This document shows, piece by piece, positions 20,933-64,000 of a DNA stretch of 64,000 bases. The notes beneath the pieces are model-generated. The model saw only the letters and a program-made list of their open reading frames with translations, ran no database searches and was not told where the DNA came from. This stretch comes from Rhizobium sp. ASV8. GTDB lineage: Bacteria > Pseudomonadota > Alphaproteobacteria > Rhizobiales > Rhizobiaceae. Position 1 is the stretch's first letter. Each line of letters starts with the position of its first letter. Both the position numbers and the translations under genes were made by a program. The stretch is taken from NCBI RefSeq assembly GCF_016429255.1, contig NZ_JAELUG010000019.1, positions 1 to 64,000 of the forward strand, read 5' to 3'.

Positions 20933-21925
20933 TCAGTTTCTTGTCCGACGCAAGGTTTCCGAAGGGCTTTCGCCGAAGCGTTCGCGATAGGCGAAGGCCG
21001 TGCGGCCCAGATGGCCAAGGCCGCAGGCAAAGACTGCGTCTGCGACGGTAAGGTCAGCTTGCCCCGCCAGCAGCGTCTTGCGCAGTATTTCCAGGCGCGC
21101 GCTCTGCACCGCCTCGATAAGGGTGTGTCCACGAGCCCGGCGGTAGCTGTCCTGCAATGTGCGCAAGGGAATGCCGGCAGCCTCGGCGATATCGGTGGTC
21201 GTGATCGCGCGCGTCGCGTTTGAACGGATGTATTCGTCTGCCCTGCGCACGGCTGTAGGCCCGCTGTCCGGCGCGGGCCGCGCGAGCGCCGGCTGATGAT
21301 TGTGTCGCAACCCCGACAGAAGCAGGCTGGTCAATCCATCGCGGAGCATGGTCTTGTAAGCGAGCGGCATATTGGCTTCGAGCGATGAGCAGAGCATAAG
21401 ATCCGCATGGCGCAAAATGCCTTGTCCGATCGGTGAGGTGAGATCAACCGCAGGATCGAACTCGATCCTGCCGGGTTCGCCATCGATGAGTTTCCCCAGA
21501 TAGTCCTCGACCGGGCCGCGCTCCATCAGGACGATCAGCTTCTCGCAACCTTCCTTCCAGAGCATCCGCGTCGAGAGCGTCGGGGACAGAAACGTGGCGC
21601 TTTTACCGGCGACGGCAAGCGTCTGGCTATTGCCGCATTTCACCAGGGATTCGCCCTTGATCGGGATCTGCAGCAGAAAGAAGCGGGAAAGTTCTCCGGG
21701 ATCGATCTCCACTTCGGCGCCATAGGAGACGAGATTGATGGAGTAGCCGGTCTCTTTCACCAGGCGATGGCGCGCATGAAAGCCTTGCTCCGCCTTACCA
21801 GTTACCATGAGGAAATGTGGGCAGAAGATCTGTCCGATTGCCATGCGCGCGTCATCGACATCGCAGGTATCCACCCGCTGGTCGCCGCTCGATCGTAGTG
21901 CCTCTATTCCGATCATTCCGCCCAT
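20933..21925 (-). CDS. AraC family transcriptional regulator
   Basis: A regulator with an N-terminal AraC-binding-like domain and a C-terminal double helix-turn-helix (ITTTDIAEAAGIPLRTLQDS and ACGLGHLGRTAFAYRERFGE). The frame is open to an ATG at 22075 (380 residues), but that start would leave only 20 bases to the divergent flavin-reductase gene. An ATG at 21925 (330 residues, family-typical length) or 21916 leaves room for promoters, so I use 21925; the start is uncertain. Its place beside the flavin reductase, SDR and StyA-like genes suggests it activates them in response to an aromatic compound. Confidence 0.85.
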   Translation of the reverse strand: MGGMIGIEALRSSGDQRVDTCDVDDARMAIGQIFCPHFLMVTGKAEQGFHARHRLVKETGYSINLVSYGAEVEIDPGELSRFFLLQIPIKGESLVKCGNSQTLAVAGKSATFLSPTLSTRMLWKEGCEKLIVLMERGPVEDYLGKLIDGEPGRIEFDPAVDLTSPIGQGILRHADLMLCSSLEANMPLAYKTMLRDGLTSLLLSGLRHNHQPALARPAPDSGPTAVRRADEYIRSNATRAITTTDIAEAAGIPLRTLQDSYRRARGHTLIEAVQSARLEILRKTLLAGQADLTVADAVFACGLGHLGRTAFAYRERFGESPSETLRRTRN

Positions 21926-22057
21926 GACTGCTTTCGCTGCGATTGCTTTCGAAAGTGAGGTTCTGACCGCCTGTTGCCGGATCTGGACATCACCTCGCGC
22001 AATCTGGATTGCCGTGCGCTCGACTTCGCCGGAACATCGGGGAAATTTTAAGCATGA

Positions 22058-22076
22058 AATGGATCTAAAATCCATT
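22058..22076. promoter_or_regulatory. Inverted repeat before the flavin reductase gene
   Basis: A perfect 7-base inverted repeat, AATGGAT-ctaaa-ATCCATT, lies 20 bases before the flavin-reductase ATG. It could be a regulator site or an mRNA leader hairpin. It also covers the ATG (22075) of the longest AraC reading, one more reason to doubt that start. Confidence 0.4.
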
Positions 22077-22095
22077 CGCCAAGGGAACGAAAAAG

Positions 22096-22590
22096 ATGGG
22101 TAACGAGGAATTCCGCGCCGGCATGCGCAAGCTGGCTGGCGGCGTCACGATTATTACCTCCATCGACAGCACGGGTCAGCGCTGCGGACTGACCGCGACC
22201 GCGGTCTGTTCGCTCTCGACCGAGCCGCCCTCTCTGGTCGCCTGCGTCAACCGCAACAGCTCCGTTGCGGCGGTGGTGGAAAGTACCCGCGTTTTTGCCG
22301 TCAATGTGCTGTCGTTCGATCAGCAGGATGTTGCAGAGGTCTTTGCCGGCCGTGCCGGCCTCGTGCGGGAAGAACGTTTCGCCTCTGGCAAATGGCGCGC
22401 GATCGAGACAGGCGCACCGGTGCTGCACGACACGGCGGTGACGTTCGAATGCGAGCTCGCCGAGATCAAGGAGTTCGGCACCCATCTCATCCTGATCGGT
22501 CAGGTCGCGGCCACGCATCTGTCCGAAGGGCGGGATAACCCGCTGCTCTACGGCAACGGCGCATTTCTGACGGCCGCAGCCGTCGCCTGA
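22096..22590 (+). CDS. Flavin reductase (HpaC/StyB-like), partner of the StyA-like monooxygenase
   Basis: A 164-residue FMN-binding split-barrel flavin reductase. It opens FRAGMRKLAGGVTIITSIDS and continues with GLTATAVCSLSTEPPSLVACVNRNSS, the family's flavin-binding part, and has the late motif LIGQVAATH. It reduces free FAD or FMN with NAD(P)H and passes it to a separate oxygenase. The likely partner is the StyA-like flavoprotein two genes downstream (23457-24695). The two are separated by an SDR gene in the same direction with short gaps, so all three are probably co-transcribed. Confidence 0.9.
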   Translation: MGNEEFRAGMRKLAGGVTIITSIDSTGQRCGLTATAVCSLSTEPPSLVACVNRNSSVAAVVESTRVFAVNVLSFDQQDVAEVFAGRAGLVREERFASGKWRAIETGAPVLHDTAVTFECELAEIKEFGTHLILIGQVAATHLSEGRDNPLLYGNGAFLTAAAVA

Positions 22591-22624
22591 TCGCATCTTT
22601 TGAAAATCGAAAGCAAGAAGGGGA

Positions 22625-23416
22625 ATGTCCATGCGTGGACTGAAAGGTAAAACTGCGATTGTTTCCGGCGGCGCGACGCTGATCGGCGAAGGCGTAGCCA
22701 AGGTGTTGGCTGACTATGGTGTGTCGGTCGTCATTGCCGATATCAACGACGAAGCCGGGAGGGCGGCGGCAGCGCGCTGCGGCTCCAATGTCCGTTTCAT
22801 CAAAGCCGATATTACCAGCGACGATGAGATCAAGTCGCTGATCGATGAGACCGTGAAGGCGACGGGACGGTTGGACTTTCTTGTCAACGTCGCCTGCACC
22901 TATCTCGACAATGGCGCCGACACCACCCGCGCCGACTGGCTCAGGGCCTTCGATGTCAATATTCTGGGATCGATCGCACTGATGCAGGCCGCTCGTCCGC
23001 AGCTCGCGAAAAACAAGGGCGCGATCGTCAACTTCGGCTCTATTTCGTCGCGCGTCGCCCAGACCGGGCGTTGGGTCTATCCCGTTTCCAAGGCGGCGAT
23101 CCTGCAGCTCACTCGCAATCAGGCCATGGATCTTGCACCGGAAGGCATTCGCGTCAACGCCGTGTCGCCGGGCTGGACCTGGAGCAACGTCATGGTGGAA
23201 CTGACGAAGAACACCCGTGAGAAGGCGGACAGCGTCGCCAAGGATTTTCATCTTCTGGGGCGCACCGGTGGACCTGAAGAGGTGGCGGAAACCGTCGCCT
23301 TCCTGCTTTCGGACAATGCAAGCTTCATCACCGGCACGGATATCCGCGTCGACGGCGGTTACACAGCAATGGGACCGGAGCGGAATGAACCGGCGATCCC
23401 CCGGCTGATGGATTGA
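22625..23416 (+). CDS. Short-chain dehydrogenase/reductase (SDR) family oxidoreductase
   Basis: A 263-residue SDR. The start is ATG 22625 or, six bases on, ATG 22631. The cofactor motif appears as VSGGATLIGEGVAKVL, slightly off the usual TGxxxGxG; the catalytic tetrad is seen as the serine of GSISSRVAQTGRWVYPVSKAA with Tyr and Lys in YPVSK, and the C-terminal part has the usual SPGW and FITGTDIRVDGGYTAMG. It would oxidise or reduce an alcohol/ketone produced by the monooxygenase. SDR genes accompany StyA-like oxygenases in indole-oxidation clusters, which supports an aromatic substrate. Confidence 0.88.
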   Translation: MSMRGLKGKTAIVSGGATLIGEGVAKVLADYGVSVVIADINDEAGRAAAARCGSNVRFIKADITSDDEIKSLIDETVKATGRLDFLVNVACTYLDNGADTTRADWLRAFDVNILGSIALMQAARPQLAKNKGAIVNFGSISSRVAQTGRWVYPVSKAAILQLTRNQAMDLAPEGIRVNAVSPGWTWSNVMVELTKNTREKADSVAKDFHLLGRTGGPEEVAETVAFLLSDNASFITGTDIRVDGGYTAMGPERNEPAIPRLMD

Positions 23417-23456
23417 ATGCCGATCGTCACGATTTCAAAGAGATAAGGGGAGCGAG

Positions 23457-24695
23457 ATGACAAAAAAGCGGAATTTTACCATTGTTGGCGGCGGTCAAGC
23501 GGGACTGCAGCTTGCCTGCGGCCTTCTGGATGCGGGCCATGCGGTTCATGTCGTGCAAAACAGGACGGCGGAAGAAATTGCATCAGGGCGCGTGCTTTCA
23601 AGCCAATGCATGTTCGATGCCGCCCTGCAGAACGAGCGCGATCTCGGCTTGAACTTCTGGGACGAGAGCTGCCCGACGGTCGACTCCATCAATTTCGTCG
23701 TACCGGCCCCGGATGGTTCCGGCAGCAAAGCGATTGAATGGAACGGCAAGCTGGACGGGATGGCCCAGAGCGTCGATCAACGCGTAAAGGTGCCGCGCTG
23801 GATGGCGGAGTTCGAGCGTCGCGGCGGTCAATTGACCATCCATGATGCCGGTATCGAAGACCTCGAAACCTATGCCCGGCAAAGCGATCTCGTGATCGTC
23901 GCGGCCGGGAAGGGGGACATCGCCAAGATGTTCGAGCGCGATGCGGAGCGTTCACCCTTCGACAAACCGCAGCGGGCGCTGGCGCTGACCTATGTCACCG
24001 GCATGACACCCCGCCCTGAGTATTCCGCCGTGAACTTCAATCTGATCCCCGGCGTCGGCGAATACTTCAATTTCCCGGCAATCACGACCACCGGCCCCTG
24101 CGATATCATGGTGTTCGAGGGTATTCCGGGCGGCCCGATGGACTGTTGGAAAGAAGTTGCGTCTCCTGAACAGCACCTTGAAAAGTCGAAATGGATTCTC
24201 GATACCTTCCTGCCGTGGGAAGGTGAGCGTAACCGGCATGTCGCGCTGACCGACGACAATGGCCGTCTGGCGGGCGCTTTCACGCCGACGGTCCGCAAAC
24301 CGATTGGCCATCTGCCGTCCGGCGCGCTGGTGCTCGGCCTTGCCGACGCGGTCTGCCTCAACGATCCGATCACCGGTCAGGGTTCCAACAACGCCTCGAA
24401 GGCGGCGAAATGCTATCTCGACGCCATCCTGGCGCATGGAGAGAAGGCATTCGATGCGGCTTTCATGCACGCGACCTTCGAGGCCTATTGGAGCTATGCA
24501 CAATATGTTGTCGGTTGGACGAATGCGCTGCTTTCACCGCCACCGCCGCATGTCCTCAACATCATGGGGTCGGCTCAGGCCTATCCGGCGCTTGCCCATC
24601 GCATCGCCAACGGCTTCAACGATCCGCGGGATTTCTTCCCATGGTTTGCCGTACCCGAGGAAGCGGACGCCTATCTGCAGCGGCTCGCCGCCTGA
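23457..24695 (+). CDS. Styrene/indole monooxygenase StyA-like FAD protein
   Basis: A 412-residue single-component oxygenase subunit of the StyA family (group E flavoprotein monooxygenases). The FAD-binding fingerprint is IVGGGQAGLQLACGLL near the N-terminus; LSSQCMFDAALQNERDLGLN, PRPEYSAVNFNLIPGVGE and LADAVCLNDPITGQGSNNAS follow the StyA order. StyA uses reduced FAD from a StyB reductase to epoxidise styrene or indole; the reductase here is encoded at 22096. The combination with AraC and SDR genes recalls iif-type indole-oxidation loci (from memory). A hairpin after the gene suggests that transcription partly ends there. Confidence 0.88.
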   Translation: MTKKRNFTIVGGGQAGLQLACGLLDAGHAVHVVQNRTAEEIASGRVLSSQCMFDAALQNERDLGLNFWDESCPTVDSINFVVPAPDGSGSKAIEWNGKLDGMAQSVDQRVKVPRWMAEFERRGGQLTIHDAGIEDLETYARQSDLVIVAAGKGDIAKMFERDAERSPFDKPQRALALTYVTGMTPRPEYSAVNFNLIPGVGEYFNFPAITTTGPCDIMVFEGIPGGPMDCWKEVASPEQHLEKSKWILDTFLPWEGERNRHVALTDDNGRLAGAFTPTVRKPIGHLPSGALVLGLADAVCLNDPITGQGSNNASKAAKCYLDAILAHGEKAFDAAFMHATFEAYWSYAQYVVGWTNALLSPPPPHVLNIMGSAQAYPALAHRIANGFNDPRDFFPWFAVPEEADAYLQRLAA

Positions 24696-24789: not shown

Positions 24790-26379
24790 ATGGCTGAACC
24801 GGATTACATCATCATTGGAAGTGGCATCAATGCGCTCGTTGCGGCCGCCATGCTCGGAAAAAAGGGCAAAAAGGTCCTGCTTGTGGAGCGCAACGACCGC
24901 ATCGGCGGTTGCCTGCGCACGGAGGAAATCACCGCCTCCGGCTACCGCCATGATGTCATGGCGACGACGATGGTGCTTTTCCTGACGTCTCCGGCCTACG
25001 GCGCCATCGGCAAGGACCTAGAAGCCCGCGGACTGGAATTCTGCCATTCGCCCCTGCCGACCGGAGTGCTGCGACCCGATGGCAGTCATGCCATTCTTGC
25101 GATGGATCGCAAAAGCAACATCGATCGTTTTGAGACGATTTGCCCGGGAGATGGAAAGGCATTCGACGCGGACATGAGCCGGTTTGCGGGCAATGCCGGC
25201 TTCGTCTTTGGGCTTCTCGGCGGCAATCTCTGGTCGAGCAAAACGGCCAAGCTCGTGCTGAAAGGGGCATGGAAGCAAGGCCTGCGCGGCTTGGCAGCCT
25301 GGTTCGGAGAGGCGCTTGCGCCGGCACGCGGCTATCTTGAAACGACTTATAGGTCCGAGGAGCTTCGTGCACTCTGGGCGCCATGGGTGCTGCATTGCGG
25401 CCTCGGCCCGGAAAGCAACTACTCGGCGGAAATGGCGCGGGTCATCGGCTTTGCGATCGAGGCTGCCGGATGCCCGATCGTCAAGGGCGGCGCAGAAAAC
25501 CTGTTGCGCGCCTTCGAGCGGCTGATCCGTGACCACGGCGGTGAGATCATGACGGGCGCCGATGTCTCCGGCATCGAGACGGAGGGCTCGGGGCGGGCAG
25601 GGGGTGTCATCCTTGCGGATGGGCGGCGCCTGAAGGCGCGCCATGGCGTTATCGCCTCCGTTACGCCCAACCAGCTCTACGACAGCCTCTTGAAGGGCCT
25701 GTCCGCGCCACTGCCGCAGGAAGTCAGCAAGGGGTTGTCGGCCTATCGCTACGGTAAGGGCAACATGCAAATGCACTATGCGCTGAAGACGCCGCCACGC
25801 TGGCGACAGGGGGATGAATTGGGCAAGGTCGCTCTATTGCACCTGACATCGGGCCTCGACGGCGTCTCGCGCTCCGCGAATGAGGCGGAACGCGGACTTC
25901 TGCCGGCGGAGCCGACCGTTTGCGTGGGGCAGCCGACGGCGCTTGATCCGAGCCGCGCGCCGGAAGGCGGTGCGATCCTGTGGCTGCAGTTGCCCGATAC
26001 ACCACGCTTCATCAAGGGCGACGCTGCGGGAGAAATCGAATGCCCCGCCGATGGCCGCTGGACGGAGCCCCTGCGAGAAGCCTTTGCCGACCGGGTCGAA
26101 GCCATGCTGCGCCTCCACATCGAAAATTTCGACGAGGCCGTGCTCGCGAGGCGATGTTACTCCCCCACCGATCTGGAGGCCATGAATATCAATCTTGTGG
26201 GCGGCGATCCCTATGGCGGTTTCTGCGGGCTCGACCAATTCTTTCTCTGGCGTCCGTTCAAGACATCCGTCAATCACAAGACCCATGTGCCCGGTCTCTT
26301 CCATATCGGGGCATCGACTCATCCCGGGCCTGGTTTGGCGGGAGGATCCGGATTCTTGCTGGCGTCTACGCTGAAGTAG
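24790..26379 (+). CDS. CrtI/phytoene-desaturase-like FAD oxidoreductase
   Basis: A 529-residue NAD(P)/FAD-dependent oxidoreductase of the phytoene-dehydrogenase-related family. The N-terminal dinucleotide fingerprint is DYIIIGSGINALVAAAML with VERNDRIGGCLRTEE following, and the C-terminal FAD motif reads GLFHIGASTHPGPGLAGGSG. No carotenoid genes are nearby, so carotenoid desaturation is unlikely; relatives outside carotenoid clusters oxidise diverse alicyclic or aromatic intermediates. It follows the StyA-like gene in the same direction after a hairpin. Substrate not known. Confidence 0.85.
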   Translation: MAEPDYIIIGSGINALVAAAMLGKKGKKVLLVERNDRIGGCLRTEEITASGYRHDVMATTMVLFLTSPAYGAIGKDLEARGLEFCHSPLPTGVLRPDGSHAILAMDRKSNIDRFETICPGDGKAFDADMSRFAGNAGFVFGLLGGNLWSSKTAKLVLKGAWKQGLRGLAAWFGEALAPARGYLETTYRSEELRALWAPWVLHCGLGPESNYSAEMARVIGFAIEAAGCPIVKGGAENLLRAFERLIRDHGGEIMTGADVSGIETEGSGRAGGVILADGRRLKARHGVIASVTPNQLYDSLLKGLSAPLPQEVSKGLSAYRYGKGNMQMHYALKTPPRWRQGDELGKVALLHLTSGLDGVSRSANEAERGLLPAEPTVCVGQPTALDPSRAPEGGAILWLQLPDTPRFIKGDAAGEIECPADGRWTEPLREAFADRVEAMLRLHIENFDEAVLARRCYSPTDLEAMNINLVGGDPYGGFCGLDQFFLWRPFKTSVNHKTHVPGLFHIGASTHPGPGLAGGSGFLLASTLK

Positions 26380-26587
26380 GCGAGGCTCGATGACGGCTAA
26401 AACTCCTGCGGACTGCCAGCCGTGTAATACCTCAGTATCATAGTCATGCCCCTGCAAGTCTCCTAGCCTTGGACTGTACCTGAACAGGGACTGGGATCTC
26501 GGTGGTTTAGCCGTCCGATAGCGTCGTTACGCGACAAGCTACGGCATGCCATATCCGCGGGTTTCCCAATTGCAGGAGGAGCAATGC

Positions 26588-27778
26588 ATGGACAAGCGGC
26601 CCGACTACGTCGCGCCCTATATGGCGATCGGACTTTCAACGATCGTCACGGGAACAGCGGAAAGGCGGCATATCCGCCATAACCTCGAAACCATCGAGGA
26701 GGCGATCCACGCGTCGATTTCCATCTGCTCGATCAACGCGCCGGTACGGGTCGTCGCGCTGGCCGAGGGCGCGTTGACTGGTTTCACCGACGAGATTTTC
26801 GACGTGCCGCATGTCACGGCCGCAAGGGAAATGTTCATCGATCTTCCCGGCGAGGAAACGGAAGCGCTCGGCAAGCTCGCACGCCACTACGACACCTACA
26901 TTATAGGACAGTGCAAAGCGCGCTGGCCCGACGTCATGGAGGATCGCTTCTTCAACACGCTCTTCGTGATCGATCGCAAGGGCGACGTCGTCCATCGAGC
27001 CGCGAAGAACCATATCTGGTGCCGTGAGCGCAGCTGCACGCCGCACGACATCTATGACCGCTGGGTCGAGCGCTTTGGAGACGGGATAGAAGCCTTCTAT
27101 CCCGTGCTGCGAACCAACGATATCGGCAATATCGGCACAATATGCTGCTCTGACGGCGAATATCCGGAGGCGGTGCGCGCTTTGGCGTTTGGAGGCGCCG
27201 AAGTAATCTATCGGCCGTCCGAGGCGATGCCGATGACTGGTTCCGGCTATCAGGGCGGAGGAAGCTGGATGATCCAGAATCGCGCCCATGCCGATTTCAA
27301 CAGCGCCTACATGCTCTGCCCGAACATTGGTCCGGTCTATCTCTCGCCGAGTTCGCGGCACCCGATCGATATTGCCGGCGGCAACGGGCACATCGTCGAC
27401 TATCGCGGCAACATCATGTCTCATTCCGCAAGCGGTGCCAACACGATGGTGGCAGCCGTCATCGATATCGAGGCGCTTCGTCAGTTCCGGGCGATGAATC
27501 TCAATTCGAACTGGCTGAAGGACCTTCGCACCGAGCTTTTCGCCCGTATGTACGACAAGCCCATTCATCCCAGCAATTTGTGGATGGAAACTGACCCCGC
27601 GCGGCACGCGACGGTCGACGAGATCTATCGGCAAAACATTGCGCGCCTGGTGGAGCGCGGCACCTGGACTCCACCGCACCACGCGGTTCCCGGCGCGCGC
27701 TACACCCCGTCGTCGCCGGAAGGTGAGGACAACTGGAACGAGGCCAAGGCTTTGTGGAGGCCCTGGCACAACGGATAG
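26588..27778 (+). CDS. Nitrilase-superfamily (carbon-nitrogen) hydrolase
   Basis: A 396-residue amidase/nitrilase-fold protein. The ATG at 26588 follows GGAGGAG closely; an earlier in-frame ATG at 26546 lies before this ribosome-binding site. The Glu-Lys-Cys triad is visible: E60 in ALAEGALTGF, K140 in HRAAKNHIW and C187 in GTICCSDGEYPE, with a second cysteine next to the nucleophile. It is about 80-100 residues longer than a compact family member because of a C-terminal extension. It would hydrolyse an amide or nitrile; in this cluster an N-containing aromatic or amide product is plausible but unproven. The 208 bases before it hold no gene. Confidence 0.85.
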   Translation: MDKRPDYVAPYMAIGLSTIVTGTAERRHIRHNLETIEEAIHASISICSINAPVRVVALAEGALTGFTDEIFDVPHVTAAREMFIDLPGEETEALGKLARHYDTYIIGQCKARWPDVMEDRFFNTLFVIDRKGDVVHRAAKNHIWCRERSCTPHDIYDRWVERFGDGIEAFYPVLRTNDIGNIGTICCSDGEYPEAVRALAFGGAEVIYRPSEAMPMTGSGYQGGGSWMIQNRAHADFNSAYMLCPNIGPVYLSPSSRHPIDIAGGNGHIVDYRGNIMSHSASGANTMVAAVIDIEALRQFRAMNLNSNWLKDLRTELFARMYDKPIHPSNLWMETDPARHATVDEIYRQNIARLVERGTWTPPHHAVPGARYTPSSPEGEDNWNEAKALWRPWHNG

Positions 27779-31022: not shown

Positions 31023-31700
31023 TCAGGCGGCTTTTGCTGCCGTCACAAAGGCGGCGATTTTGTCGATATCCTTGCGGAAGCCGCCCTCAGGCAAGGGCTT
31101 GTTGGTGTGCGTCAGCGAATCCACGGCCCACGGCTGGACCGCGGCGATGGCCGCCCGAACATTATCTGGCCCAAGGCCGCCGGCAAGGATGACAGGTAAC
31201 TTGCTGCGCTTGACGATTTCGCGGCTCAGCGACCAGTCGTGAGTGACGCCGGCAGCACCGATCCCGTCGATGTGCGCTGCAACGGAATCGAGAATGAAGG
31301 AGTCCGAATAGGGTTCGAACGCCGCGGCGTGATCGAGCGCTTCAGGCCCGGTCATCGGGATGGCCTGCAGGATCTTCAGCTGGGGATAGCGGGCCAGCAA
31401 GGTCTCGCGCAACTGCCGCACATGCTGTGGCGTCACCAGCTTGATGTCTCCACACAGGTGCAGCACGTCCGGACGCACGGCGCCAACCATGTCTGCAATC
31501 AGGCTGAGGTCGCTTTCGACGGATAATGCCACGCGCTCTGCCTTGCCGGTCAAGGCGTCGACAATCTCGCGCGCCGTCTCGAAGCTGATTTCGCCCGGCA
31601 AGCCGCGATTGGACGGCGTTACGCCAAGATAGTCGACGCCTGCCGCGGCAGCCGCCAGTGCTTCGGAAACGGTCTGCATCGTATAGATTTGAACTTTCAC
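31023..31700 (-). CDS. Phosphoribosylanthranilate isomerase (TrpF)-like protein without catalytic Cys
   Basis: A 225-residue TIM barrel resembling TrpF. The order of elements fits: MKVQIYTMQTVSEALAA, GVDYLGV, the segment SFILDSV with Asp138 (the general-acid position) and the phosphate loop LAGGLGPDNVRAAI. The general-base cysteine of TrpF (in KICGI) is Tyr6 here (QIYTM), so normal PRAI activity is unlikely. It is downstream of the RpiR gene by 20 bases and divergent from a sugar importer, PLP enzyme and PfkB kinase. A role on an Amadori-type or phospho-sugar intermediate is a reasonable guess; the reaction is not known. Confidence 0.8.
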   Translation of the reverse strand: MKVQIYTMQTVSEALAAAAAGVDYLGVTPSNRGLPGEISFETAREIVDALTGKAERVALSVESDLSLIADMVGAVRPDVLHLCGDIKLVTPQHVRQLRETLLARYPQLKILQAIPMTGPEALDHAAAFEPYSDSFILDSVAAHIDGIGAAGVTHDWSLSREIVKRSKLPVILAGGLGPDNVRAAIAAVQPWAVDSLTHTNKPLPEGGFRKDIDKIAAFVTAAKAA

Positions 31701-60960: not shown

Positions 60961-61788
60961 TCAGGCGCGACTATCAATTGCGTGCCGATAATCGGCGACC
61001 AGCTGAGCAGCCGTCGATTTGAACGCCTCACCGGTGCAATCTTGAAGCATCGTCTCGAACCGTTCGATCAAGGCGGTCGCAACGATTACGCCGTCTGCGA
61101 CCTTGGCGACGGCGGCCGCCATTTCGGGTGTCTTGATGCCGAAGCCGACCATGATGGGCATGTCGCTAACGCTACGGCAGCGTTCGACCGCACCCGCGAT
61201 CACGTCGATCGATGCGGACGGACCGCCGGTTGGCCCGACCACCGGGATGCAATAGAGGAAGCCGCCTACACCACCATGATCCGAAACGAAATCGTCCGCC
61301 GGCAGCGACGGCGCTGCGAGCGGGATCATGACGAGCCCATGCTTGCTGAGGTGTTTGAGAAGCGCGTCGGCTTCCCGCAAGGGCAGGTCGGCGACAATCA
61401 GACCATCCACGCCTGCGGCGGCCGCGCGCGCGGCAAAGACGTCATAGCCCATGGTCCTGATAGGATTGGCGTAGCCCATCAGGATGATCGGTGTCTCGTC
61501 GTTATCCAGGCGGAAGGCGGCGCACAGGTCCAATGTCCGCGGCAAGCTGCCTCCCGCTGCCAGCGCACGTCGATTTGCCCGCTGGATCGTCGCACCATCC
61601 AGGATTGGATCGGAGAAGGGATGGCCGATCTCCAGCAGATCGATGCCATTCTCGGCCAGGAGCCGCATTCGCTCCAGGCTTTCGTCAAAGGAGGGATCGC
61701 AGGCGACGGTAAAGGTAACGAATGCGCTGCGGCGTTCCGCCTTCAGCCGTGCGAACATGAGGTCGATACGATTTTGCGTCATTCGCAA
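60961..61788 (-). CDS. Tryptophan synthase alpha chain (TrpA) homologue in a sugar-uptake locus
   Basis: A 275-residue TIM barrel with TrpA features: LLEIGHPFSDPILDGATIQR (E53 and D64 match the catalytic Glu49 and Asp60), YCIPVVGPTGG (phosphate loop; TrpA has GVTG) and IMVGFGIKTPE. The catalytic acids are intact, so retro-aldol cleavage of indole-glycerol-phosphate or a similar phosphosugar is chemically possible. It overlaps the TrpB-like gene by 10 bases. Both follow an Rbs-type permease and ATPase, with no trpF, trpC or other trp gene next to them, so it is probably a paralogue in a carbohydrate pathway. Confidence 0.88.
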   Translation of the reverse strand: MRMTQNRIDLMFARLKAERRSAFVTFTVACDPSFDESLERMRLLAENGIDLLEIGHPFSDPILDGATIQRANRRALAAGGSLPRTLDLCAAFRLDNDETPIILMGYANPIRTMGYDVFAARAAAAGVDGLIVADLPLREADALLKHLSKHGLVMIPLAAPSLPADDFVSDHGGVGGFLYCIPVVGPTGGPSASIDVIAGAVERCRSVSDMPIMVGFGIKTPEMAAAVAKVADGVIVATALIERFETMLQDCTGEAFKSTAAQLVADYRHAIDSRA

Positions 61789-62969
61789 TTTTCCGCCCAG
61801 ATGATGTCGAGATCCTTGTCGCCCGAGGAGGGGACCATGACGACCACGGCGTCATTTCGATCATAATGGCGCGCTATGCGCTCCGCGGCGGCCAATGCGT
61901 GGCCCGCTTCGAGCGAGACCAGGACGCCTTCGCGGATCGCAAGCCGCAGGACCGCTTGACGGGCGTCTTCGTCGGTAAAAGCAAGCGTCTCGACGCGGCC
62001 GCGCTCAACGAGATCTGCAAGTTCGGGTGCGGAGCCGGGATAGGCAAGTCCGGGTGCGATGGATGCCGTTGGCTGGATCTGGCCGTTTTCGTCCGCAAGC
62101 ACCAGCGTTTCGGCACCATGGAAAATGCCCGGCCGCCCTTTCGCAAGGCGCGACGAATGCGGCTTGCCTTCGCCGCCTTCACCACCCGCTTCAACGGCTA
62201 CCAGCCGGATCTGACGGTCGTCGACGAACGCGGAAAAAATGCCGAGGGTTGAGGAGCCCCCGCCAACGGCCGAAACAATCGCCTTGGGCAATACTCCCGC
62301 TTCCAATAGCTGGAGGCGGGTTTCGCGGCCGATCACCGACTGAAACGCACCGACCATGGTTGGAAAGGGGTGAGCGCCGATCGGCGCACCGGCGAGATAG
62401 GCGGTCGTAGCGCTATTGCCCATCCAGTGGCGGATCGCGGCGGAGGTTGCCGCACTCAATGTCCGGTCCGCATCCCCCACGACCTGGAGATCGGCGCCAA
62501 AAGCGCGCATTTTCTTGATTGTCGAGGGGTGCCGTTGCGCGTCGCTGCTTCCCATGTAGATCGTGCATGCGAGCCCAAGGCGTGCAGCGGCGGCGGCGGC
62601 TGCCACTCCGTTTTGGCCCGACCCCGTATCGGTGACGACGGAACTCAGCCCCATCCGCACGGCAAGCAGGCTTTGCCCGAGGGCTGAATTGGCGTAATTG
62701 CCGCCGTTGAAGGTCAGGTCGTCGCGTTTGAGGATGATGCGAGCACCGCCATTGACGGACGCCAGCGCAATGGTTTCGAAGATTGGCGTCGGCCGGCCGA
62801 CAAATCGACCTAGAAGGTCTTCGAACGTCCGGCGAAAGCCAGGATCCTCCCAAGCCGCGTTGAATGAAGCTTCCAGGCGGTCCAGCACGGGCAAGAGCAC
62901 GGGCGCAACGAATTGCCCGCCAAACCGTCCGTACCGGCCAGGGCGTTCCTTCAGTGAAGCGGTTGCCAT
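61779..62969 (-). CDS. Tryptophan synthase beta chain (TrpB)-like protein without PLP lysine
   Basis: A 396-residue TrpB relative. ATG 62969 (MATASLKERPGRYGRFGGQF) is used; it lies 1 base after the permease stop. Overall TrpB order is kept (GRPTPIF, HPFPTMVGAFQSVIG, AVGGGSSTLGIF, SSGDKD). The PLP loop, HKTNQ in standard TrpB, reads NYANS here: Lys87 is replaced by Tyr92 (codon TAC, 62694-62696), and the catalytic Glu109 by Asp114 in TDTGSGQNGVA. It therefore cannot form the usual internal aldimine and is a pseudo-enzyme or a TrpB scaffold with new chemistry. It partners the TrpA-like protein next to it. Confidence 0.85.
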   Translation of the reverse strand: MATASLKERPGRYGRFGGQFVAPVLLPVLDRLEASFNAAWEDPGFRRTFEDLLGRFVGRPTPIFETIALASVNGGARIILKRDDLTFNGGNYANSALGQSLLAVRMGLSSVVTDTGSGQNGVAAAAAAARLGLACTIYMGSSDAQRHPSTIKKMRAFGADLQVVGDADRTLSAATSAAIRHWMGNSATTAYLAGAPIGAHPFPTMVGAFQSVIGRETRLQLLEAGVLPKAIVSAVGGGSSTLGIFSAFVDDRQIRLVAVEAGGEGGEGKPHSSRLAKGRPGIFHGAETLVLADENGQIQPTASIAPGLAYPGSAPELADLVERGRVETLAFTDEDARQAVLRLAIREGVLVSLEAGHALAAAERIARHYDRNDAVVVMVPSSGDKDLDIIWAENCE

Positions 62970-62970
62970 A

Positions 62971-63903
62971 TCAGGCCGTCCCTTGGCCGATGCGGCGCAC
63001 GAGCACCGCGGCGAGGATAATGGTGCCGGTGATGATGTCCTGGAGGAATGTCGATACGCCAAGGATGGTCAGGCCATTGCCGACAACTGCGATAATGGCG
63101 GCTCCAACTACGGTCCCCGGCAGGTTCGCTTCACCCTCGCGAAATGCGGTCATTCCGAGAAATACGGCAGCATAGGCGCTTAGGAGATAACCTCCTCCGC
63201 CCGTGGGGTTGGCGCTGCCGATGCGGGCGGTCAGCAGAATTCCGACCAGAGCCGCCAGCACGGCCGAGACGATGAAAGCCGCAACGGTATTGGAGACGAT
63301 CCTGACGCCGGCCAGTCGCGCCGCCTCACGGTTTCCCCCGATGGCATAGAGCTTGCGGCCAATTTCCAGCTTATCGAGCAGGATCCAGACAACGAAGGCG
63401 ATGGCGATCAGCCACCATGTCAATGTCGGCAGGCCCAGCGTATGACCCCGTCCGATATCGCGGAACCCGCTTGGAATGTCTCCGAGCAAGGTGGCGCCAT
63501 CACAGATCCAGAAAGTGATGCCGCCGATGATCGTGCCGACCGCGAGCGTGGCGATGAACGAAAGCACCTGGAAGCGCGAGACGACATAGCCGGAAATTGC
63601 GCCGAAAAGCGCCGCGACCACCAAGACCAGCAGGCAGGCGAGGGGAGCTGGCACTCCAAGCTTGAAGAGATAGACCGTGAAAATGCCTCCGAAGGACACG
63701 ATCGAGGCCGTCGAAAGATCAAATTCGCCGACCGCCATCACAACCGTCGCACCAATGGCGACAATCGCCAACAAGGTCATTTGCTGCGTGATGTTGATCA
63801 GGTTCGACATTGAGCCGAACGCGCTCGGGGAGACGATGGAGAAGGCGGCTATGATCGCGACGAGCGCGAACAGGGTTCCGTATTGTCTGGCAAAGCCGGT
63901 CAT
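62971..63903 (-). CDS. ABC transporter permease, RbsC-like
   Basis: A 310-residue permease with about nine hydrophobic segments. Characteristic parts are AIGATVVMAVGEFDLSTASI and LSAYAAVFLGMTAFREGEAN, the ribose-type pattern. ATG 63903 overlaps the stop of the ATPase gene upstream (ATGA) and its stop is 1 base from the TrpB-like start, so ATPase, permease, TrpB-like and TrpA-like genes are one operon. The binding protein of this importer must lie beyond the right edge. Confidence 0.92.
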   Translation of the reverse strand: MTGFARQYGTLFALVAIIAAFSIVSPSAFGSMSNLINITQQMTLLAIVAIGATVVMAVGEFDLSTASIVSFGGIFTVYLFKLGVPAPLACLLVLVVAALFGAISGYVVSRFQVLSFIATLAVGTIIGGITFWICDGATLLGDIPSGFRDIGRGHTLGLPTLTWWLIAIAFVVWILLDKLEIGRKLYAIGGNREAARLAGVRIVSNTVAAFIVSAVLAALVGILLTARIGSANPTGGGGYLLSAYAAVFLGMTAFREGEANLPGTVVGAAIIAVVGNGLTILGVSTFLQDIITGTIILAAVLVRRIGQGTA

Positions 63904-64000
63904 GCGGATGGATCTTTCCTGCTGTCTTGATGGAATGCGGCGTCGACAATCCGGGATGGAGTGAGTTCCTCGCCTTCCAGCCGTGCCGTGATATCGCCGT
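63900..64000 (-). CDS. ABC transporter ATP-binding protein, RbsA-like, C-terminal end (runs off window)
   Basis: The last 32 residues of a protein whose reading frame enters from the right edge: GDITARLEGEELTPSRIVDA, then AFHQDSRKDPSA. The G-x-I-x-x-x-x-x-G-E-E-L-T pattern is the usual C-terminal end of the second ATPase domain in RbsA-like proteins. The stop overlaps the permease ATG as ATGA. It energises the importer at 62971. Confidence 0.75.
   Translation of the reverse strand, partial: GDITARLEGEELTPSRIVDAAFHQDSRKDPSA

Follow-up and report, generated by a model that had tools for sequence, protein, structure and literature searches.

What does a protein do that folds like the beta subunit of tryptophan synthase, carries a tyrosine where the cofactor-binding lysine should be, and is encoded next to an alpha subunit whose catalytic residues are intact? 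The question is raised by a gene pair near the end of a 64,000-nucleotide stretch of the genome of Rhizobium sp. ASV8 (hereafter the window). Tryptophan synthase is a textbook example of substrate channelling and allosteric control.

The TrpB-like gene (61779-62969, minus strand), assigned by profile, alignment and predicted fold, is open throughout and encodes 396 residues with no inner stop, in agreement with a preliminary description of a full-length, clean frame. Its product scores 410 bits against the NCBI TrpB equivalog TIGR00263, above the cut-off of 392, and a pipeline using this model would consequently name it tryptophan synthase beta. An AlphaFold model (mean pLDDT 88.4) gave TM-scores of 0.90-0.93, by query length, with 50 TrpB chains among the matches listed. 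Alignments produced by phmmer with two solved TrpBs were gapless across the cofactor loop, where HGGAHKTNN becomes FNGGNYANS; they lack the single-residue deletion that a hand alignment had suggested there. For TrpB positions we use the numbering of Salmonella TrpB, which, like the list of pocket positions, was assigned by motif. Lys87, the PLP lysine, aligns with Tyr92 of the TrpB-like protein (TAC codon at 62694-62696, minus strand), Glu109 with Asp114, and Ser377 with proline. The preliminary description had proposed the first two replacements and a change of the serine that holds the PLP ring nitrogen, and the alignments bear out all three. The protein is without the Schiff-base lysine, Glu109 and Asp305 though the TrpB fold is kept, and it would be expected to have lost PLP.

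A clade of lysine-less TrpB-like proteins

Scanning genome contigs with the window protein yielded 27 loci, 18 at 66-95% identity and nine ordinary TrpBs at 40-44%, with no locus between 44% and 66%. The 18 loci and the window protein make up the clade of 19 analyzed here. Its members are soil and marine bacteria, placed by record titles in Rhizobium, Shinella, Martelella, Mesorhizobium, Devosia, Roseobacteraceae and others, and some rows repeat a species, as with L044 and L046. In a tree built from 57 rows, a branch with 100/100 support sets the clade apart from the rest. This branch is very long (1.9 and 1.49 changes per column either side of the midpoint root) and drew the program's warning of long-branch joining, so the tree fixes no sister group. 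Members are rare, with the Tyr motif found in 3/148 genomes of the genus and, among 385 genomes of the class, in the window's own genome only. Tyr-type TrpB was found at E 1e-130 or better in 8 of 394 family genomes, own genome included. The 130 matching records of a plasmid collection all fall below 60% identity, and hence no clade member resides on plasmids in that collection.

LKRDDLTFNGGNYANSA is present in 19/19 members. The Lys87 column holds tyrosine throughout the clade (19/19) and lysine in all 16 aligned true TrpBs, a comparison set chosen out of 38. At Glu109 the clade has aspartate in 18 members and glutamate in one (L043); Asp305 is replaced by alanine (15) or serine (4), and the Ser377 column holds proline in 13, glutamine in three, alanine in two and serine in one. 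Four further changes, His86 to Asn, Ala112 to Ser, His115 to Asn and Asn236 to Ser, occur in all 19. Thr237 is likewise fixed, Gly232-234 are retained, and Glu283 is invariant where 14/16 true TrpBs have arginine or lysine. Four close pairs of the TrpB-like gene gave dN/dS ratios of 0.094, 0.066, 0.055 and 0.027, and these low values, together with tyrosine in every member, exclude a sequencing error. The clade is distinct, real, conserved and non-standard among TrpBs. That the window copy is a decaying paralogue or sequence artefact found no support, and with the same tyrosine in 18 further records and low dN/dS, this explanation can be set aside for practical purposes.

Standard tryptophan synthase genes are found in most of the same genomes. 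The preliminary description had suggested looking for a standard trpBA elsewhere in the window's genome, and one lies on contig C651. A standard TrpB scoring above 600 bits is present in 15 of the 18 other clade genomes; the remainder have a fragment (G062), none (G069) or a 109-bit copy with two stops (G070). The last two are roseobacter genomes with a Tyr-type TrpB in which an intact standard TrpB was not seen (the G070 copy is at C26:259140-260279), and the absence in G069 possibly reflects masked or missing sequence. These two or three genomes, along with the TrpB fold and the equivalog score, are what could be cited for a protein that still holds PLP, non-covalently, and forms tryptophan or a different beta-substitution product. 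Such an activity is very improbable given that Lys87, Glu109, His86, Asn236, Asp305 and, mostly, Ser377 are altered together, and that standard trpB is kept in the window's genome and in the 15 others. The TrpB-like protein is very probably not a tryptophan synthase, and by known chemistry it should be unable to form tryptophan.

The altered pocket is held constant in its new state. Invariant columns make up 21/28 of pocket positions and 149/358 of the rest (Fisher p 0.0007), as compared with 22/28 and 101/358 in true TrpB. A pocket as invariant as a true active site suggests a ligand or reaction and argues against a mere scaffold; it can mean either that the pocket is locked in an activating shape or that it serves a new ligand or reaction. 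Such strict conservation of the altered pocket leaves a TrpB fold with new chemistry, the second option of the preliminary description, as an alternative. In such a PLP-independent enzyme the former PLP phosphate loop (GGGSS) would bind the phosphate of the kinase product, and the conserved Tyr92, Asp114, Asn91 and Asn120, with the newly acquired glutamate of HGAET, would act as acids and bases, for example to ready an indolyl-sugar phosphate for cleavage by TrpA. Consistent with this are the fixed Asn86, Tyr87, Ser112, Asn115, Ser236, Thr237 and Glu283, the kept glycines at 232-234, the location of 8 of the 16 columns of fixed difference from true TrpB in or beside pocket motifs (by count), and a neighboring FGGY kinase that could provide a phosphorylated substrate. 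On the other hand, position 109 goes merely to aspartate, with glutamate in one of 19, the TrpB-like gene occurs without a TrpA-like gene in 0/19 loci, and we know of no fold-type II protein that uses tyrosine in such a way. We consider an active enzyme of this kind possible but rather unlikely, and a little less likely still its fuller version, in which the cofactor-free protein acts on an indolyl-sugar phosphate at the old PLP site and passes the product through the subunit tunnel to TrpA. If the cofactor-free reading were true, tryptophan synthase would have become a two-step channel for breaking down an indolic nutrient.

The TrpA-like partner and the operon

Directly downstream of the TrpB-like gene in 19/19 loci is a TrpA-like gene (type 'c0'; 60961-61782, minus strand, in the window). 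The preliminary description gave the two frames a 10-base overlap, which requires a TTG start at 61788; more probably translation begins at the ATG of an ATGA junction, where four bases overlap. Across 18 loci a candidate TrpA-like start lies -8 to +5 bases from the trpB-like stop, and none was found near that stop in L054. The protein keeps Glu49, Asp60, Asp56, Asp130, Tyr102, Tyr175, Thr183, Gly184, Phe212 and Gly213 in all 19 loci, which upholds the earlier statement that the catalytic glutamate and aspartate are present (Glu49 and Asp60). Indole-pocket positions 22, 100, 127 and 232 are as in true TrpA or nearly so. Gly234 of the phosphate loop is alanine in 19/19, and two more indole-pocket positions, 129 and 153, are unlike those of the 12 true TrpAs used for comparison. 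With its catalytic residues kept, the adjacent TrpA-like protein is expected to have remained an aldolase acting on compounds like indole-3-glycerol phosphate. A TrpA matching the window's at E 1e-75 or better was found in 2/397 genomes of the order. One is the window's own; the other, judged by its contig number and abutting coordinates, is that of L045, and there too the gene adjoins the TrpB-like gene. The TrpA tree carries the same long-branch warning as the TrpB tree and fixes the origins of neither TrpA group.

We regard it as highly probable that the TrpB-like protein works as a partner of the adjacent TrpA. The manner of coupling would differ from the textbook. In the clade Lys167 is replaced by Ser, His or Asn, Asn171 by Ser and Glu172 by Ala, and Arg141 is variable; with these residues and Asp305 gone or variable, activation through the textbook salt bridges is impossible.

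The pair belongs to an operon of sugar-transport type. A permease of the ribose type (BPD_transp_2 by profile match; 62971-63903, minus strand) precedes the TrpB-like gene, and the 3' end of an ABC ATPase gene occupies 63900-64000 (minus strand). From there the operon runs upstream past the window, and on contig C733, in window-equivalent coordinates, the ATPase extends to 65414, followed by a sugar-binding protein (65439-66518), an FGGY kinase (66391-67872) and an AraC-type regulator (67997-68965). In the direction of the operon the order is AraC-type regulator, FGGY kinase, sugar-binding protein, ABC ATPase, permease, TrpB-like and TrpA-like. By tblastn the permease and the adjacent TrpA-like gene were found in all 19 loci, the kinase and the binding protein in 18 each, and a comparable regulator in 17; these counts retain L036, whose contig begins 1.2 kb upstream of the gene, and the likewise incomplete row of L054, and some loci had less than 10 kb on one side of the TrpB-like gene. 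The kinase of L054 (5034-6485) appeared in three tblastn pieces, which with the missing TrpA start indicates frameshifts or poor assembly. The nearest model to the kinase was xylulokinase (264 bits, below the cut-off of 380). The regulator has an AraC_binding_2 plus HTH_18 architecture and AndR as its nearest NCBIfam model (113 bits, below cut-off). An Rfam search of the TrpBA-like operon returned no match at the gathering score.

A second, strongly diverged TrpA-like gene lies between regulator and kinase in 12/19 loci (L037:4311-5084, L047:4258-5049 and ten others). We rejected an initial identification of this gene as a short-chain dehydrogenase (SDR). Two members matched Trp_syntA at 1.5e-19 and 5.4e-25, and the best PDB match of the L047 protein was maize BX1. 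Glu49 and Asp60 are kept in 12/12, Asp130 and Tyr175 are lost in 12/12, and Asp56 is lost in five. The gene was not found in the window's lineage (L034, L048, L049, L035, L051) or in L038, and the contig end prevents a judgment for L036; the window's genome contains two Trp_syntA matches in all, neither of this second kind. Separately, the window has a TrpF-family gene (31023-31700, minus strand; PF00697, 1e-11) next to what seem to be genes for sugar transport and a sugar kinase, a further case of a tryptophan-pathway fold among sugar-type genes.

Indole/styrene-type monooxygenases and a proposed indolic route

On the same contig, 37 kb from the operon, the window encodes an indole/styrene-type monooxygenase (23457-24695, plus strand; PF17885, 5.9e-46, below the StyA cut-off), the sole PF17885 match in the genome. 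It is preceded by genes for a flavin reductase (22096-22590) and a short-chain dehydrogenase (22625-23416), both on the plus strand, and by a divergent AraC-type regulator (20933-22075, minus strand) whose nearest NCBIfam model is AndR (150 bits, short of the cut-off of 350). Downstream on the plus strand are a CrtO/CrtI-like FAD oxidoreductase gene (24790-26379) and a carbon-nitrogen hydrolase gene (26546-27778), which may be part of the indole cluster. The monooxygenase of L046 matched 7z4x, presumably the indole monooxygenase VpIndA1, at E 1.8e-178 and styrene monooxygenase 3ihm at 1.1e-37. The VpIndA1 paper is cited in the available part of PMC13101512.

PF17885 occurs in 15/19 clade genomes (14 of the 18 others and the window's own), as opposed to 12/296 genomes of the order besides the window's own and 7/145 genomes of the genus without the Tyr motif; weak matches, including four of these seven, were kept in the genus and order counts. 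Fisher tests, with genomes taken as independent of kinship, gave p ~4e-15 with the order background and ~2e-4 with the genus background. Leaving out three Rhizobium lusitanum-like genomes, the counts were 12/16 for the clade and 12/296 for the order. The monooxygenase lies within 10 kb of the operon in 4/19 loci: L041, L060, and L044 and L046, the pair from one species (in L044 it runs off the end of the stretch examined). In a further genome, G1298, it is directly beyond the operon regulator; the TrpB-like proteins of this genome and of L040 are equally similar to the query, which makes G1298 a probable near relative of the Martelella of L040. In 5 of the 14 other clade genomes with both, and in the window's own, operon and monooxygenase are on one contig; in 9/14 they are on separate contigs. 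Five stretches from further genomes (L081-L085), taken to look for such linkage, lacked the TrpB-like gene, and a sixth (L086) confirmed L046.

This genome association points to an indolic compound. It bears on the role in sugar breakdown put forward in the preliminary description, which fits the sugar-type transporter and kinase and does not account for the association. A purely carbohydrate pathway, with a ketose phosphate cleaved by the TrpA-like protein, no indole, and an incidental link to the monooxygenase as one accessory catabolic gene among others, would agree with the transporter and kinase, with the absence of a PF17885 match in 4/18 other clade genomes and with the differences at TrpA-like positions 129 and 153. 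We think it improbable, since the other indole-pocket positions of the TrpA-like protein compared (22, 100, 127 and 232) are retained or nearly so and the monooxygenase association, with adjacency in four loci, is far over background. In addition, TrpA needs the indole ring as an electron sink. The pathway is probably indolic.

From these elements a catabolic route can be proposed. The ribose-type ABC transporter would import an indolyl-polyol, most simply indole-3-glycerol, and the FGGY kinase would phosphorylate its terminal hydroxyl to give an indole-3-glycerol-phosphate-like compound. The TrpA-like protein would then split this compound by a retro-aldol reaction, releasing glyceraldehyde-3-phosphate together with free indole or a closely related product. 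Its TrpB-like partner would form a complex with TrpA in the usual way and make no tryptophan; as a pseudoenzyme it would maintain TrpA activity and allow indole to escape. Loss of the ability to consume indole, with TrpA held active, is what an indole-releasing route needs. The indole would subsequently be oxidized by the Iif-type monooxygenase often present along with the operon. We lean slightly toward a non-catalytic activator as the role of the TrpB-like protein and give about even chances to the complete scheme, cleavage of an imported and phosphorylated indolyl-polyol by TrpA with a pseudoenzyme partner. Indole-3-glycerol as the exact substrate is a more tentative assignment. Several observations weigh against the scheme: the constant pocket, the loss of the textbook coupling residues, the lack of the plant-type lock, the alanine at Gly234 of the TrpA-like protein and its altered positions 129 and 153, and the clade genomes in which a monooxygenase was not found or is on another contig. 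The TrpBA-like operon is readily cloned. Should the indole link be true, it would constitute an unrecognized bacterial route for uptake and degradation of indolyl-polyols, and an example of genes that bear a tryptophan synthase annotation but have another role.

Comparison with known systems

Among the best matches in the open-licence PMC literature, we found no description of a bacterial lysine-less TrpB or of such an operon, and none of bacterial use of indole-3-glycerol as a nutrient. With TrpB1 (TIGR00263) the clade shares fold, length, a TrpA neighbor and the glycine phosphate loop; unlike TrpB1, it has replaced the PLP lysine and several contacts to PLP and substrate, and it forms a separate, long-branched group.

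The monooxygenase region of the window (20933-24695) resembles the iif indole cluster of Acinetobacter baumannii, which includes iifR, D, B and C genes in the available text of PMC4577076. AraC-type regulator, flavin reductase, SDR and monooxygenase correspond in kind to iifR, iifD, iifB and iifC, whereas neither an iifA-type (DLH) gene nor iifE is among the genes recognized in the window cluster, and the TrpBA-like operon is 37 kb off. IifR has an AraC_binding_2 plus HTH_18 make-up according to the same text (PMC4577076), and the operon regulator shares it.

The plant lyases BX1 and IGL are TrpA homologues that free indole, as proposed here for the adjacent TrpA-like protein. In the accessible portion of PMC12727527 they are described as acting alone; the window TrpA-like protein, in contrast, keeps Asp56 and Asp130, and its gene overlaps that of its TrpB-like neighbor.

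The closest parallel is the plant TSB-like pseudoenzyme, which makes no tryptophan and binds and activates TSA, so that free indole is released (Florean et al. 2025, PMC12727527, in the part available). With this precedent, a TrpA aldolase paired with a lysine-less TrpB, the first option of the preliminary description, becomes the best-supported reading of the bacterial pair; that the partner is PLP-free and that TrpA is activated by it, as that description also had it, are predictions from the altered residues. Both systems are TrpB homologues that keep the fold and carry substitutions at the Glu109 and Asp305 equivalents, and the partnership with TrpA for free indole, shown for the plant protein, is proposed for the bacterial clade. 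The replacements are not the same. According to the excerpted text (PMC12727527), the plant equivalent of Glu109 is mostly alanine (serine or proline in Solanaceae) and that of Asp305 is glutamate, and lysine loss is not reported there. The bacterial clade has Lys to Tyr, Glu to Asp and Asp to Ala or Ser, and with Ala or Ser in 19/19 it is without the Asp305-to-Glu lock. Given these other substitutions and the loss of the lysine, the bacterial clade looks like an independent case. The settings differ as well: plant TSB-like serves biosynthesis, as far as the consulted part of PMC12727527 extends, whereas the bacterial protein is encoded with a TrpA of its own, a transporter and a kinase in one operon of catabolic character, where it is proposed to activate TrpA. 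A bacterial clade with a lysine-less beta subunit tied to an intact TrpA would thus stand as a second, independent case beside the plant TSB-like protein of 2025.
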